Shown here piece by piece: positions 9,363 through 14,148 of a stretch of 64,000 bases of DNA. Under the pieces are notes generated by a model. The model ran no database searches. It worked only from the letters and a program-made list of their open reading frames with translations, and was not told the DNA's origin. Positions within the stretch are counted from its first letter, which is position 1. Each line of letters opens with the position of its first letter. Made by a program: the position numbers and the translations under genes. Source of the DNA: Proteiniphilum propionicum (GTDB lineage: Bacteria > Bacteroidota > Bacteroidia > Bacteroidales > Dysgonomonadaceae); assembly GCF_022267555.1 (NCBI RefSeq), contig NZ_CP073586.1, positions 1,426,001 to 1,490,000 on the forward strand. Direction: 5' to 3'.

Positions 9363-9861
9363 CTAACTTAAGATACTTCCGATCTGTTTGCGATCAAAAA
9401 GATCCAACACACAGGTCAGATAAAGAAATCCATCCTTACACGGAATATAGGTCAGGTCAGAGATACACGCTTTCACAGGCTCATTTTGATTAAACCTGCG
9501 ATTCAGCAGATTTGGTGCAACCTTATAGTTGTGAGAGGCATCCGTCGTCACTTTGAATCGTCTCGAGAATTTGCTGCGCAAGCCCATTTCTTTCATATGG
9601 CATGCTACAGTGGTTCTCGAGACAGCAGTTCCGGATGCCTGCAAATCCTTCGCCAGCCGGGGGCTTCCATTGCGTCCCTTGGCAGCAAATATGCATCCAT
9701 GATCTTTTCATCCAGCTCCATATATTTGCGCCTGCGTTGGCCCTCCGGATCTTTAAGCCAGCGGTAATAACTGCTCCTGGGGACTTTCAGCACTTTACAC
9801 ATCACCTCGATCGTCCATTGTTTCGAGTTGTATTCCTTTATAAAGAGATAGATTAACGATC
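9363..9861 (-). pseudogene. IS3 OrfB (rve integrase) remnant, frameshifted and truncated
   Basis: Two frames together give the start of an IS3 OrfB: MCKVLKVPRSSYYRWLKDPE, then after a shift near 9690 the HTH_21-like piece KGRNGSPRLAKDLQASGTAV. The first catalytic Asp lies in KACISDLTYIP and the second near LDLFDRKQ. The rest, including the catalytic Glu, is missing because the gene stops at 9363. It follows orfA with the usual overlap of reading frames. Confidence 0.75.
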
Positions 9862-10152
9862 TCTCTTGGAGATGATGCTCAAAGCTTTTTTTAATATGTC
9901 CCGCTCCGTTTCAGCCTCGCCAAGACGTTTTCCCAGTTCAGCAATCCTTTTGGAGTCTTCAGTTAATGACTGGACTCCGTGTCCGGGGAAACAGGCTTCC
10001 CCTTTCTGCCGGTATTCTTTCCGCCAACGATATAAAAGAAAAGGGGCAATACCCAATTCCTGCGCAAGCTCGGAAACATTCTTGCGTTCTAAACTGAGTT
10101 TGACCGCATTCTCTTTGAATGCCTTGTCAAAATGTGTCCTTTGTTTTCTCAT
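9853..10152 (-). CDS. IS3 OrfA, HTH transposase subunit
   Basis: With ATG at 10152 the product is 99 aa, normal for OrfA. The HTH_Tnp_1 region reads FKENAVKLSLERKNVSELAQ and ELGIAPFLLYRWRKEY. The C-terminal leucine-zipper-like helix is RIAELGKRLGEAETERDILK. In intact IS3 elements it is joined to OrfB by programmed frameshifting. Here OrfB is decayed, so OrfA is a leftover, possibly a repressor. Confidence 0.82.
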   Translation of the reverse strand: MRKQRTHFDKAFKENAVKLSLERKNVSELAQELGIAPFLLYRWRKEYRQKGEACFPGHGVQSLTEDSKRIAELGKRLGEAETERDILKKALSIISKRDR

Positions 10153-10220
10153 ATTACACAAAAATAAGCTTTTATGCTTAACTCTGTGTCCCGGATAAGT
10201 TAGTAATTCCACGGTAATGT

Positions 10221-11300
10221 TTATAGATCTCTAATGTCATAACTAACAATAACCCATTCGGAACTTGAAGAATCAATTACAGCGGCATATAGTTTTTCCG
10301 CACTTTCATTTACACATATGTAAAAGGCGTTTTGATTCAGTTCTATTTTTTTCACAGGATACCCTTTCCAATCAAAAACTAATACAGTTTTTGAGTTATA
10401 ATCATTTCTTATATTATTTGTGAATAGTTTTTTATCTGTGTGTAATGCATACACATATTTTTCTGTAGCACAGAGATCTATATAGCCGATAATATTATTA
10501 TCAGATGGCAAAACCCTGTTCAAATTATTATCGCTAATGGGCTGATAGTTTGGATTGTGCAATCTCAATGATTTGATCAGTTGAATCTTATTTTCTTTTA
10601 GTTCTAAAAAGTCTATGTTTGAAGAAAAATTGAGTGAGTAGACAAATTGATCCTGATTGGGCCGTTTTCTTAAAACTCCCTGATTAGACAGAAATTTATG
10701 ATACTTGTTGAATGTCTTCTCACTGGCATTGTAAATTTCCACGTTATAATCGAGAACATTACTATACTTATCAAAGAGAACAAATTGAAATTTTGACATA
10801 TACGTCCCGGCTCCGATAAATAGTGAATCATTTATCGGTATAGCTTGGGAAAGCTGTGCGTCAATAATTTGATATCTCACCATTTGACGGGGAGTTGTAT
10901 TTATATCCTTATTTAAAGAACTTATAGCGTATTTTCCTATAAAACCTGTTTGGTCATAAAAAAGATAAAAGTTATCTTTTTCAATTTGTCCGTATGTGCC
11001 AAGAGCCAATTCATCAGGTCCTTGTCCTATTGCTCCAAATCTCCCTACTAATTTGCAGGAATCAACGTCGAAAAGAGTAAAACTATAACCGGAATGATAG
11101 TCTAGCACGATAATATTTTGATCATTACAACAAATTCCCTCTATTTGAGCTAAATCATCTCCATCAATAAAAGTTGCACTCTCTTTTAGGATGATCTTTT
11201 CAGAGAATGTATCATTGATTGATTTTTTCTTGTTATTTGTACATGAGATCAGCGCAAAAAAGAAAAAAAGGGTATATAGTAATATTTGTTTCTGCATCAT
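10221..11300 (-). CDS. 6-bladed beta-propeller lipoprotein (BF3164/TolB-like family)
   Basis: 359 aa. Signal and lipobox LISC near residue 20 place it as a lipoprotein. After the leader come repeated beta-propeller blades: IVLDYHSGYSFTLFDVDSCK, GRFGAIGQGPDEL (the G-x-G-P-E/D signature typical of this Bacteroidetes family), and a closing blade ending KLYAAVIDSSSSEWVIVSYD. It is the last gene of the leftward NVEALA operon, 94 bp after the second peptide gene. Members of this family are routinely found beside NVEALA peptides; the function of the pairing is unknown to me. An IS3 remnant sits just after its stop. Confidence 0.8.
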   Translation of the reverse strand: MMQKQILLYTLFFFFALISCTNNKKKSINDTFSEKIILKESATFIDGDDLAQIEGICCNDQNIIVLDYHSGYSFTLFDVDSCKLVGRFGAIGQGPDELALGTYGQIEKDNFYLFYDQTGFIGKYAISSLNKDINTTPRQMVRYQIIDAQLSQAIPINDSLFIGAGTYMSKFQFVLFDKYSNVLDYNVEIYNASEKTFNKYHKFLSNQGVLRKRPNQDQFVYSLNFSSNIDFLELKENKIQLIKSLRLHNPNYQPISDNNLNRVLPSDNNIIGYIDLCATEKYVYALHTDKKLFTNNIRNDYNSKTVLVFDWKGYPVKKIELNQNAFYICVNESAEKLYAAVIDSSSSEWVIVSYDIRDL

Positions 11301-11394
11301 TGTAATTTATTATTAAATTGTAGCACAAAAAGATAGGATAATCAGTTTGTGCTACAATTATAGAAATAATCATGTAAAAATTTTAGTTGTATAC

Positions 11395-11634
11395 TTATGG
11401 GCATGGAGAACTTTGGAATTTACCTTTTATTTCAAAGTTATCTCCTTTCACACAGGTTCCTGTATTTCCACAACACCAATAGTGATCCACGCTACTTTCA
11501 GTGTCTGCGAGTGCTTCAACATTCATCAATGTTAAGGAGGAAAGATATGATCTATCATTTCCATTATTCTGAGAATATAGATAACTAAATAATGCTATTA
11601 TACAGAGTGCGGTTGAAATATATAATTTCTTCAT
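11395..11634 (-). CDS. NVEALA-family secreted Cys-rich peptide (second of the pair)
   Basis: 79 aa. A basic start (MKKLYIS) and hydrophobic segment (ALCIIALFSYLY) form an export signal. The family motif NVEALA is at residues 38-43. After it comes a short mature-like tail of about 36 residues: DHYWCCGNTGTCVKG, F-E-I-x-G, and a final SSPCP. The tail matches the neighbouring peptide at 11674 in the CCGNT..C.KG and SPC positions (four Cys here, five there). The gene is 39 bp downstream of that peptide, in the same operon. The length and motif fit the NVEALA family; its role is not established. Confidence 0.85.
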   Translation of the reverse strand: MKKLYISTALCIIALFSYLYSQNNGNDRSYLSSLTLMNVEALADTESSVDHYWCCGNTGTCVKGDNFEIKGKFQSSPCP

Positions 11635-11673
11635 GTTGCTGAATATTTAATTAAAATAGCTTATATTGAGGTT

Positions 11674-11931
11674 TTATTGACAAGGTGATGTATGCAAATG
11701 TCCATGAATAACAAATTCGTTTCCGTTTTGATCTGTTCCTTTAGCACATGTGCATGTGTTTCCACAACAATAGAAAGTACTACCTCCACTTTCTCCATTT
11801 GCCAATGCCTCCACATTACTCAACGCCAAATCACTCAGATTGGCATTACTTTTCAAACTTTTGTTCACTCCGAAACCTGCGGTTGCCAGGAGTGCGAGGG
11901 CGAACAGGCCCGAAAGAATTTTCTTCTTCAT
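11674..11931 (-). CDS. NVEALA-family secreted Cys-rich peptide (first of the pair)
   Basis: 85 aa. The N-terminal signal is MKKKILSGLFALALLATAGF. The spacer LKSNANLSDLALS precedes NVEALA at residues 40-45. The C-terminal part is Gly/Ser-rich and carries five Cys in FYCCGNTCTCAKG and TSPCQ, probably disulfide-bonded after export. The ALA in the motif looks like a processing site but that is inference. It lies 58 bp after the thioredoxin-DUF1573 gene and 39 bp before its sister peptide. Related in sequence to the peptide at 11395, so likely a tandem duplication. Confidence 0.9.
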   Translation of the reverse strand: MKKKILSGLFALALLATAGFGVNKSLKSNANLSDLALSNVEALANGESGGSTFYCCGNTCTCAKGTDQNGNEFVIHGHLHTSPCQ

Positions 11932-11989
11932 TCCTTTAAAAATTTAATTGTTTAAAACTATTGATTTCTGCCTCTTTTGCAGAGGATTT

Positions 11990-12871
11990 TTATTCCGTAT
12001 TTCCTTTTAGCCGTATAATCAACGACGAGTTGTCCATATTGCCGTACACCGAAACGGTTTTATTGAAATTCCCCCGGTCGTCGGCATTGTAGGTGATGCT
12101 TATCCGGGTTGTGCTGTCCGGAAGTATCGGTCTCTTTTCGTATTCAATATGCGTACATCCGCACGAGGCACGGGTATCAAAAATCATAAAAGGCGATTCA
12201 CCTACATTTTTTATGGAAATGCTAACCGTTTTAGCCTCTCCTTTTGGAATGGTTCCCAGATCAAACTCCGTGTTATCTACTTCAATTTGTGTGTTGCGAG
12301 ATGATAATGTTCCTCTGCTTTGATATGCATTCTGTGATATTTCGGATAAATACATCTCCTTAACCCGCAAATTATGTACCGGGTTTCCGATAAACACGAC
12401 TTTATTCTCATCGTCGAGCAAAAAAGTCTGAAACTGCTGATGTGTCGGAAAATGATTCACCGCATTCAGTTTATCTTCCATATCAATACAAATCGGGATG
12501 TCAATGCCATCTCTTTTCAAGAGATAGGATATCTCCCGTAAATCTTTGGAATGGAATACGAAGATAACGGGAACGGTACCGTGAGTCATGGAATCTATCT
12601 CTTCTATAAATTCTTTCCACTTATGCAGTTGCAGTTTACAACTGGTGCAACCGATGGAATCCACATACACCAATATTTTGTGTGATGCCGGAGGAATGGT
12701 GTAATCTGTGGTGTCTCTGCCGTGCAGCGTAAAAACAAGACCTTTCGGGAAAATTATTTCCCTGTTCTGCCATTCGGTAACGACTTTGGCAATTTCTTTT
12801 TGCGGATTATTTTTACAAGAAAGCATCAATCCGCTTACTCCCATCAACAATAAGAAATAAGGTAATCTCAT
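11990..12871 (-). CDS. Lipoprotein with thioredoxin-like and DUF1573 domains
   Basis: 293 aa. Lipobox LMLSC near residue 19. Residues about 65-180 look thioredoxin-like: ILVYVDSIGCTSCKLQLHKW carries a CxxC (CTSC) after a beta strand, followed by a peroxiredoxin-like stretch (DIPICIDMEDKLNAV). Residues about 195-293 are a DUF1573 immunoglobulin-like domain: FDLGTIPKGEAKTVSISIKN, then ASCGCTHIEYEKRPI. The gene starts 1 bp after the upstream propeller frame and precedes two Cys-rich NVEALA peptides. A role in the oxidation or folding of those peptides is plausible but inferred from context. Confidence 0.82.
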   Translation of the reverse strand: MRLPYFLLLMGVSGLMLSCKNNPQKEIAKVVTEWQNREIIFPKGLVFTLHGRDTTDYTIPPASHKILVYVDSIGCTSCKLQLHKWKEFIEEIDSMTHGTVPVIFVFHSKDLREISYLLKRDGIDIPICIDMEDKLNAVNHFPTHQQFQTFLLDDENKVVFIGNPVHNLRVKEMYLSEISQNAYQSRGTLSSRNTQIEVDNTEFDLGTIPKGEAKTVSISIKNVGESPFMIFDTRASCGCTHIEYEKRPILPDSTTRISITYNADDRGNFNKTVSVYGNMDNSSLIIRLKGNTE

Positions 12872-12872
12872 G

Positions 12873-13921
12873 CTATGAATGCTCTAATTTAAATTTCACG
12901 ATGGGTAGATTGGAATTTACATCAACGGCATACAGCTCATTTGTCTTTTCATTTACATCAATACCATAAATAAACCGATCCAATGTGTACCTGACAAGCG
13001 GTTCTCCTTTTACCGAAAAAACGTAGATATATTGACCGCCATCTATCGCGGGTTGCTGTTGTTCGGCAATCTCCTTAAAGCTTCTGCCATGAAAAACGGC
13101 ATAAATATATTTATCCGTTACCTGAATGTCGCTGAATCCCATAATTCCCGAAGGGATTGCCATTCCTTTCGCCTCATTATATTCCGGCTCTCCGTGAGGG
13201 CCAAACTTCACGATATGCGTGCCGTCTTTTAAGTTAAAAATTTCCAGCACTTCTCCCAGTTGGGTTACCATAGCCAGAATTCCGTTATCTGGGTTATAGT
13301 CTATGAAGGAACGCCATGCCTGGGCTAAAGCTATGTCTTTGTTTTTATGTTCTACGCTTGGTATTTCGCCACGGCTGGATTTATATCCCCATTCATATCA
13401 ATAATATGAAAACGGTGTTTGCCGGAATAGTCGGGAATGATAAAGCAGGAATCATCATACAAAGCAAAATCCAATGCGCGAATAATCTCTTTGTCTAAAG
13501 ATATTTCCTTTGTACTCGTCTTTTCATGAACACGTTGCAATGACAAATTCGTAATCAAGTGCTTGTTCGCATCCAATCCCCACATCTTTCCCCCGGCTAA
13601 TCTGAAATTTTCAACTGACAGATTCTCTTCGGGTGCTTGACCACGCTTTCCAAAAGAGGAGAGATATCTGAACTGTGGATAGGTGAAAGAATGGTAGAAA
13701 TAGTCGGGGTGATGCAAGTCCATAACAATGGCTAAACTGTCTTGATGCTTAATCCTGAACGGATAGCGCAACATGACAGAATCTGTTTCAATACTCTTTC
13801 CTGTAAGTGAGATGTTGACGGGAAACGAGTCATAAGAGAGGTTGTTGTTGGTGTTCTTACACCCTATGGCAACCGTAAGTAAACAGCAGATAAGAAGATT
13901 GTGGCTTAGGTACTTCCTCAT
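12873..13921 (-). pseudogene. 6-bladed beta-propeller lipoprotein, single frameshift
   Basis: The first frame (from ATG 13921) has a lipobox (AIGC) and propeller blades including FRYLSSFGKRGQAPEENLSV. It runs out at TAG 13352-13354 after INPAVAKYQA. A second frame picks up there as IPSVEHKNKDIALAQAWRSF and continues to 12873 with IVKFGPHGEPEYNEAKGMAI and YGIDVNEKTNELYAVDVNSN. The two frames together give the normal length for this family (about 350 aa). The shift near 13360-13375 is not in a homopolymer longer than three, so it may be a real mutation. Neighbouring genes overlap or abut (5 bp and 1 bp), which fits one operon. Confidence 0.75.
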
Positions 13922-13926
13922 TCCGA

Positions 13927-14148
13927 TTAAAGTATTCTAATAAAGGCAACTTTGGTGGAAATCTGCGGACAGTCTAAGCTGCCAAGCCCCAAACACCGAT
14001 AATTTTCTCCATCTTCTCCTGATGCCAGCGCTTCAATATTTGAAAGCACCAATTCGGATTTTATGCCGTTTCGTTGGCTTTTTAAATACACAAGAGACAA
14101 TACTGATACTGCCATAAATAGTGACAAAATTACTTTTTTCTTTTTCAT
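13927..14148 (-). CDS. NVEALA-type peptide (NIEALA variant), first gene of the operon
   Basis: 73 aa. Signal MKKKKVILSLFMAVSVLSLV, then SELVLSNIEALASGEDGENY: the family motif is present as NIEALA at residues about 38-43. The tail RCLGLGSLDCPQISTKVAFI has only two Cys and no resemblance to the CCGNT tails of the other two peptides. It is 5 bp upstream of the frameshifted propeller gene and appears to lead the operon. The three peptides therefore share a leader and motif but differ in their mature parts, as expected for a common export or processing route with diverse products. Confidence 0.8.
   Translation of the reverse strand: MKKKKVILSLFMAVSVLSLVYLKSQRNGIKSELVLSNIEALASGEDGENYRCLGLGSLDCPQISTKVAFIRIL

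Follow-up and report, generated by a model that had tools for sequence, protein, structure and literature searches.

Variable tails of NVEALA peptides co-vary with adjacent beta-propeller lipoproteins in Proteiniphilum propionicum and other Bacteroidales

Among the systems described from the same order, the nearest that we found are the bacteroidetocins, class II-like Bacteroidales peptide toxins which, in the available text of PMC6671954, are cysteine-containing peptides of 35-50 aa with a 15-16 aa leader ending in GG and a peptidase-containing ABC transporter, for which no immunity protein was found; their loci also encode a thiol oxidoreductase, ascribed there to the absence of general disulfide machinery in Bacteroides. 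Here we report on a locus of Proteiniphilum propionicum at 14148-10221 on the minus strand of a 64,000-nt stretch of the chromosome (the window, G000:C1:1426001-1490000; coordinates without a prefix are window positions), which encodes three NVEALA peptides, two beta-propeller lipoproteins and a thioredoxin-like DUF1573 lipoprotein (Table 1). Loci of this kind share with the bacteroidetocins, as portrayed in that text (PMC6671954), small cysteine peptides and a locus-encoded putative thiol oxidoreductase. Unlike them, they have a membrane leader of about 44 aa ending in EALA, a signal peptidase I and a matched propeller. A double-glycine leader, and with it a class II bacteriocin, was considered and rejected because the leader ends in EALA (exactly so in 75 of 87 leaders) and many loci encode signal peptidase I; no peptidase-ABC exporter was among the recurrent neighbours listed, although no search was aimed at one.

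Bacteriocin/immunity and polymorphic-toxin cassettes combine a constant export part, a variable effector part and a matched neighbour gene, and the NVEALA loci appear to be built alike, the neighbour here being a six-bladed-type propeller lipoprotein. In Bacteroides thetaiotaomicron, a gene group within one narrow range of locus tags, BT0662-BT0669, appears to be the same system, likened by names only: tables in PMC10434189 name an O-antigen ligase, a 6-bladed beta-propeller, lepB and a resistance-nodulation-division (RND) adaptor. The open literature searched, mostly without subscription papers and bioRxiv, gave us no description of an NVEALA-propeller system, nothing on 'NVEALA' by name and nothing on the locus in the Petrimonas literature, and a paper on the mining of ribosomally synthesized and post-translationally modified peptides (RiPPs; PMC10352776) contained none of the system terms sought. 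The parts are known families, and the system is apparently undescribed. To our knowledge, no role has been assigned to the NVEALA, BF3164-type TolB_like or DUF1573 families.

Our principal finding is that the variable tail of each peptide co-varies with the propeller encoded directly downstream. Of 61 relatives, 11 had NVEALA, as did 26 of the 392 genomes sampled from the Bacteroidales (23 above the Pfam cut-off; up to 15 candidates scored per genome) and 37 of 65 from one family, that of genome G135. Set 1 consisted of 40 regions picked around NVEALA matches, together with the window, the main array of the same chromosome and region L028, and was accompanied by 20 control regions from the same genomes, one of only 5.4 kb. 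Set 2, which has no controls of its own, consisted of 40 regions from other genomes, all in the family of G135, which had also given five regions of set 1. Regions were 3-20 kb long with several per genome, and tests on them count related places as separate. The models for peptide, propeller and thioredoxin-like protein were built from our genome alone and applied unchanged to set 2, as was the pattern for the core peptide (C-x-G-x-G-S-[LIV]-[DE]-C, loosely written), drawn up after inspection of set 1.

The gene following a peptide encoded a propeller in 72 of 96 cases in set 1 (another peptide in 7, another gene in 16, of which 4 reached E 1e-3 with a broader propeller model, and a contig edge in 1) and in 66 of 95 in set 2 (another gene in 17, the thioredoxin-like protein in 8, a peptide in 4). 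Broken propellers or those below 250 aa, gaps of at least 500 nt, tails below 18 aa and peptides lacking an EALA-like site were dropped from the pairs, leaving 87 set 1 peptides with tails of at least 18 aa and 89 set 2 peptides with a site; removal of near-duplicates in set 1 reduced 62 pairs to 59 and 87 tails to 80. Mantel tests on the 59 non-redundant pairs of set 1 gave a correlation between tail and downstream propeller of r = 0.749 (P = 2e-4, the lowest value attainable with 5000 permutations), rising to 0.839 for the 27 pairs of the genus, whereas leader and propeller were not significantly correlated (r = 0.047, P = 0.14; genus only, 0.045). The relation held without core peptides (r = 0.60, 50 pairs), while the upstream propeller showed none in 23 non-core peptides of set 1 (r = -0.02); in the 18 with both neighbours, the values were -0.02 upstream and 0.86 downstream. 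Set 2 behaved similarly, with r = 0.821 for the downstream propeller (53 pairs), 0.698 without core peptides (45 pairs) and -0.07 for the leader. Each tail thus seems matched to its own downstream propeller, suggesting a diversified system of peptide recognition or self-protection. The window cassette by itself is uninformative on pairing, since its second propeller has only remote relatives (at most 31% identity) among other matches in 393 genomes of the order and 39 of the genus.

Leader and tail are separate modules, a conclusion that rests on a break in identity at EALA and on the reverse pattern in tandem peptides. Ten of the 11 alignments between window and array that reach or approach peptide 1 end at 11782-11801, between its last EALA codon (11802-11800) and a point 18 nt beyond, as does that to Petrimonas sp. 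IBARAKI (11785); the eleventh, to an interrupted copy, ends at 11985. We compared 17 genes from our genome and its genus, eight of them from its array, chosen because the final 100 nt of their leaders matched the window's leader to 75% or more. In the two 30-nt bins that lead up to and include EALA, their mean DNA identity was 0.84 and 0.85, which the selection itself keeps high; it was 0.47 over the next 30 nt and 0.31-0.32 further on. Similarly, 47 of 48 pairs with leaders 85% alike had tails less than 50% alike. Peptides 1 and 2 of the window show the opposite, with similar tails (0.37, empirical P = 0.012) and dissimilar leaders (0.25, P = 0.60). A hydrophobic N-terminal stretch was found in 84 of 87 leaders, with 19-25 residues (5th-95th percentile) between its end and that of EALA; Glu occupies position +3 or +4 in 76 of 80 tails of set 1 and 76 of 79 of set 2.

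The 62-position PF14055 model, whose description as shown gives no function, covers mainly the leader and undercounts the peptide family. Peptides with diverged leader ends (IEALGQ and NVAMADAE, at L155:6677-7150 and L157:11518-11823), which it misses, lie beside transglutaminase-like, Wzy_C, signal peptidase, thioredoxin-like and propeller genes. NVEALA as a full marker of the system was accordingly rejected.

The peptides look like exported, disulfide-closed mini-proteins. Cysteine counts were even in 69 of 80 tails of set 1 (55 of 64 in the strict set, P = 3.5e-9) and in 73 of 79 of set 2 (strict, 49 of 52). In the thioredoxin-DUF1573 proteins, both the CxxC motif and the CxC of DUF1573 were invariant in the 13 aligned, out of 40 matches that include fragments, and matches to StoA-type proteins were weak; the protein would presumably act as an oxidant.

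The neighbourhood of the peptides is conserved. Comparison across genomes, proposed by the sequence-only reading with a missing shared neighbourhood as its refutation, bore that reading out; it recovered a propeller in 38 and the thioredoxin-like protein in 23 of the 40 set 1 regions, together with transglutaminase-like (15), signal peptidase I (12), Wzy_C (11) and regulator (9) genes, and each of these six in none of the 20 controls. Partner representatives were identified with Pfam and NCBIfam. The corresponding counts in set 2 were propeller 38, thioredoxin-like 32, regulator 29, transglutaminase-like 24, signal peptidase I 21 and Wzy_C 19, the models for the last four including set 1 members of the same family. 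Orthologous RND adaptors occurred in 8 of 40 set 1 regions against 0 of 20 controls (P = 0.03) and in 10 of 40 set 2 regions; pumps (7 of 40 against 1 of 20, P = 0.18) and TolC (4 of 40 against 0 of 20, P = 0.19) showed less. An RND/TolC exporter as a fixed part was rejected, being confined to a minority of regions, and is accessory at most.

Outside the window, each of 12 core peptides has a divergent regulator beside it (8 long, 2 truncated and 2 kinase/response-regulator pairs), and so has each of 13 in set 2. The regulators scanned carry Trans_reg_C, with region L089 having instead a histidine kinase and a response regulator. These observations, and the constant core pair beside the regulator, would fit a signalling role in which mature peptides are ligands and periplasmic propellers, as binding proteins, relay their state to a ToxR-like or histidine-kinase regulator in the membrane. 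However, divergent regulators are common for any operon, and few regulators stand against up to 18 or more peptides, so that we regard signalling as somewhat doubtful.

The transglutaminase-like partner, a lipoprotein, has a genome-level link with NVEALA: a strong match (E 1e-50 or better, reached in 59 of 148 matching genomes, the weaker ones listed being mostly partial) was present in 22 of 26 NVEALA genomes against 37 of 366 others (P = 1.6e-16; up to three candidates scored per genome). Of 12 loci from genomes positive for this gene and negative for NVEALA, two show diverged-leader peptides beside several of the same partners, as judged with a simple filter and by eye. Assignment to the transglutaminases is weak, with Transglut_core in 5 of 10 members at E values up to 5 (best 2.1e-5), one Cys and one His invariant in nine aligned members and F5/8C-type domains in 7 of 10. 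Such domains, the genome-level link and a Wzy_C protein with weak TPR matches might indicate that the peptides are glycosylated or cross-linked into extracellular or envelope material. Yet tail diversity and tail-propeller matching are unexpected for a coat, and the propellers show no surface-export signal (a weak point, see below); we consider this explanation improbable. Region L089 encodes a 941-aa transglutaminase-like protein with a long insert (L089:10889-13711), and a ricin-type lectin domain in one of the 10 members is taken to be that of L089. Near a member of the family, L159:11561-13269 holds an ORF (open reading frame) with, by eye, a radical-SAM-like CxxxCxxC motif, and a small peptide rich in Cys whose start resembles a leader, possibly a RiPP locus.

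With a limit of E 1, the 3.9-Mb chromosome yields 22 NVEALA matches: 3 in the window, 18 within 57 kb in the main array (2955256-3011860) and 1 at 420899, which carries an internal stop. A module of core peptide, core propeller, thioredoxin-like gene and the leader of the next peptide has four copies, of which the one in the window shares 95.6-96.2% identity with the rest; one of these others ends before the leader. Copies of the 3' end of the thioredoxin-like gene precede other peptides in the array. In the nearest named relative found, Petrimonas sp. IBARAKI (Dysgonomonadaceae; thioredoxin-like protein 94% identical), a locus of about 13 kb has a divergent regulator, core peptide, core propeller, thioredoxin-like gene, peptide, propeller, peptide and a propeller in pieces, and continues, by DNA similarity to our array, with transglutaminase-like, Wzy_C-like and signal peptidase I genes, another peptide and a lipoprotein-like ORF. 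At G000:C1:3010343-3021112, peptide-propeller cassettes lie within an RND operon, between adaptor and pump; in genus relatives L110, L112 and L113, the RND-operon cassettes differ from these in identity or position. A third, partial transglutaminase-like match of our genome (G000:C1:3814738-3815667, L167) has a Wzy_C-type gene within the same 20 kb. In genomes G010, G021 and G015, several NVEALA matches are on very short contigs or close to contig ends, as expected if repeated leaders break assemblies, and draft genomes may undercount arrays.

The window copy itself is a damaged satellite of a larger system. Its genes follow one another in the order core peptide, core propeller, thioredoxin-like lipoprotein, peptides 1 and 2 and second propeller, with intergenic gaps, computed from the coordinates, of 5, 1, 58, 39 and 94 bp, in line with the 1-94 bp that the sequence-only reading had given. 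Pfam upheld its catalogue of ORFs, but the seven genes counted are six: the two ORFs of the core propeller are one broken gene, their products covering positions 6-145 and 186-296 of the 296 in the PF15869 (TolB_like) profile, and the gene spans 1049 nt here against 1050 nt in three open genomic copies (349 aa). Likewise, two of the tails had been called Cys-rich, whereas all three contain cysteines (2, 5 and 4). All three peptides pass the curated PF14055 cut-off of 27 bits (32.9, 55.4 and 51.3 bits), as do the second propeller (69.5 bits) and the pieces of the first (119.2 and 102.6 bits) that of PF15869 (29.2 bits); both propellers start with lipobox-like sequences (ISC and IGC in the translations, by eye). 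The core peptide DNA is identical over 222 of 222 nt to two of the other three copies and over 220 of 222 to the third. With the core propeller broken and the regulator reduced to a remnant, and with insertion-sequence remnants on both flanks, the downstream cassette may still function, provided that processing is supplied by genes of the main array. A 162-aa lipoprotein-like ORF at 8573-9061 matches nothing in Pfam at E 10 or in NCBIfam, and PADLOC found no defence-system match at E 0.01 among the seven proteins submitted.

Table 1. Features of the NVEALA locus and its immediate flanks in the window
Feature	Position	Strand	Details
Core NVEALA peptide, first gene of the module	13927..14148	-	73 aa; leader through EALA, mature part presumed to begin at residue 43, 2 Cys; PF14055 E 9.7e-14
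Core propeller lipoprotein, frame-shifted	12873..13921	-	ORFs 13921-13352 and 13271-12873 (189 aa, 132 aa); PF15869 in both
Thioredoxin-like (CTSC) and DUF1573 lipoprotein	11990..12871	-	293 aa; PF07610 E 1e-27; weak StoA-type matches
Variable NVEALA peptide 1	11674..11931	-	85 aa; 5-Cys tail (odd number); PF14055 E 5e-15
EALA codons of peptide 1 (seam)	11800..11811	-	Alignments to paralogues and Petrimonas sp. IBARAKI end there or up to 18 nt beyond
Variable NVEALA peptide 2	11395..11634	-	79 aa; 4-Cys tail; PF14055 E 5.4e-8
Variable propeller lipoprotein	10221..11300	-	359 aa; PF15869 E 4e-19; presumed partner of peptides 1 and 2
5' remnant of divergent membrane-bound regulator, OmpR-type winged helix-turn-helix	14241..14369	+	Long copy at G000:C1:2960130-2961275
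IS3-type transposase ORF (HTH_Tnp_1), directly downstream of the locus	9853..10212	-	Similar pieces continue to 9363 (by eye)

The propellers should face the periplasm. In Bacteroidetes, acidic residues at +2 to +6 form a surface-export signal of lipoproteins, according to the available text of PMC5080379; a lipobox was recognized by pattern in 85 of the 125 set 1 propellers longer than 200 aa, and none of the 85 had at least three acidic residues at these positions. The point is weak, since control lipoproteins were mostly negative too (about 2 of 37, 0.05, carried the signal), and the surface coat envisaged by the sequence-only reading is only slightly weakened by it. As to fold, the second propeller of the window matches, with moderate confidence, the NHL type. 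A model from four sequences (m341047b32463; predicted local distance difference test, pLDDT, 60; predicted template modelling score, pTM, 0.66) had NHL-type propellers as top fold matches (E 3e-9, TM 0.51/0.63, root-mean-square deviation 6.4), and a profile of 18 propellers matched NHL chains with a best E of 3e-16. Brat, TRIM2/3/71, PAL lyase and Drp35 are NHL-type propellers matched by profile and fold, at 9-12% identity in the fold matches; unlike them, the window protein is a Bacteroidales lipoprotein, and we make no catalytic claim for it.

The explanation that we prefer, with a probability of roughly 0.6, is a modular peptide system of constant leader, variable tail and cognate propeller. 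The leader, a membrane segment followed by some 19-25 spacer residues up to and including EALA, would take the Cys-rich tail across the inner membrane, signal peptidase I encoded in the locus would cut after A-L-A, and the thioredoxin-DUF1573 lipoprotein would close the disulfides. The cognate propeller lipoprotein, product of the adjacent gene and probably anchored so as to face the periplasm, would then bind the mature peptide of 28-80 residues. A tail would move together with its propeller as one cassette, new cassettes joining at the leader, and the core peptide/propeller pair would sit beside a membrane-bound regulator controlling the locus, while transglutaminase-like, Wzy_C and, in some lineages, RND partners might modify or export the product. 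The sequence-only reading had suggested export, cleavage near EALA, oxidation by the thioredoxin-like protein and binding by the propellers, and in part it stands. Export is predicted from the hydrophobic stretch of the leaders; cleavage gains indirect backing from the switch in DNA identity, the Ala-x-Ala and the signal peptidase gene, oxidation from even cysteine counts and the CxxC, and binding, in a sharper form, from the covariation of each tail with its own propeller. Leader/tail modularity, the main array, the divergent regulator and the signal peptidase, Wzy_C, transglutaminase-like and RND partners go beyond it.

Several points weigh against this modular peptide system. A CxxC protein may be a reductant just as well as an oxidant, ordinary signal peptidase I substrates are cut much nearer the hydrophobic core than 19-25 residues, one of the window tails has an odd number of cysteines, and the AlphaFold model of the thioredoxin-DUF1573 protein (pLDDT 38) gives no usable fold. 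Tail and propeller adjoin, so that co-inheritance alone yields some covariation. The upstream propeller also correlates with the tail in set 2 (r = 0.301, P = 0.003, 25 peptides; in the 17 with both neighbours, 0.44 upstream against 0.89 downstream), which conserved gene order among close relatives may explain, and non-core leaders of set 1 are weakly correlated with propeller (r = 0.114, P = 0.002) and tail (r = 0.085, P = 0.04). It could be argued from these values, and from an array grown by duplication with its copies of the thioredoxin-like 3' end, that tails and propellers hitch-hike as duplicating cassettes with no physical partnership. Such linkage would not be expected to leave the equally close leader with little or no correlation, nor does it sit easily with a pairing that spans genera and that, in either set, survives the removal of core peptides, and we judge it unlikely. 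Finally, neither a recognised propeller nor another peptide follows 17 of 96 peptides in set 1 and 25 of 95 in set 2, and 56 of 127 propellers of at least 250 aa do not directly follow a peptide.

These last figures bear on antagonism with immunity, in which the peptides would be bacteriocin-like and each propeller lipoprotein would shield its maker from its own peptide. Unpaired propellers are what unpaired immunity genes would look like; cassettes of a variable peptide and a matched neighbour, with an array of 18 NVEALA matches in one genome, similar tails in four of seven tandem peptide pairs (empirical P < 0.05), bacteroidetocin-like size and cysteines and, weakly, the predicted periplasmic orientation point the same way. 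Conversely, the leader is not of the double-glycine kind, a toxin that endangers its maker would hardly allow for the 25 of 95 set 2 peptides with neither a recognised propeller nor a peptide beside them unless protection came from elsewhere, a core peptide conserved across families is odd for a weapon, and the Wzy_C and transglutaminase partners are left unexplained. Antagonism is therefore possible, at odds that fall short of even. Within the modular peptide system, our tentative favourite is a weapon against related strains, from which the propeller would protect its maker, with signalling close behind: this use is placed slightly above signalling because many propellers are unpaired and cassettes accumulate, its estimate being lowered slightly for the set 2 peptides that stand alone. 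The competing explanations agree largely on anatomy and part mainly over use, and antagonism and signalling may both hold.

In summary, the NVEALA, BF3164-type TolB_like and DUF1573 families become parts of one testable system. A bolder reading, less likely than not, is one of polymorphic recognition, in which an open-ended series of disulfide mini-proteins on one leader would each be read by its own NHL-like propeller, a conserved core pair would report to a membrane-bound transcription factor, and cells would distinguish strains that share their cassettes from those that do not, responding by killing or signalling. The matching of tail and propeller opens a direct test of binding, and the modular leader offers a route to many unknown secreted peptides of the Bacteroidales.

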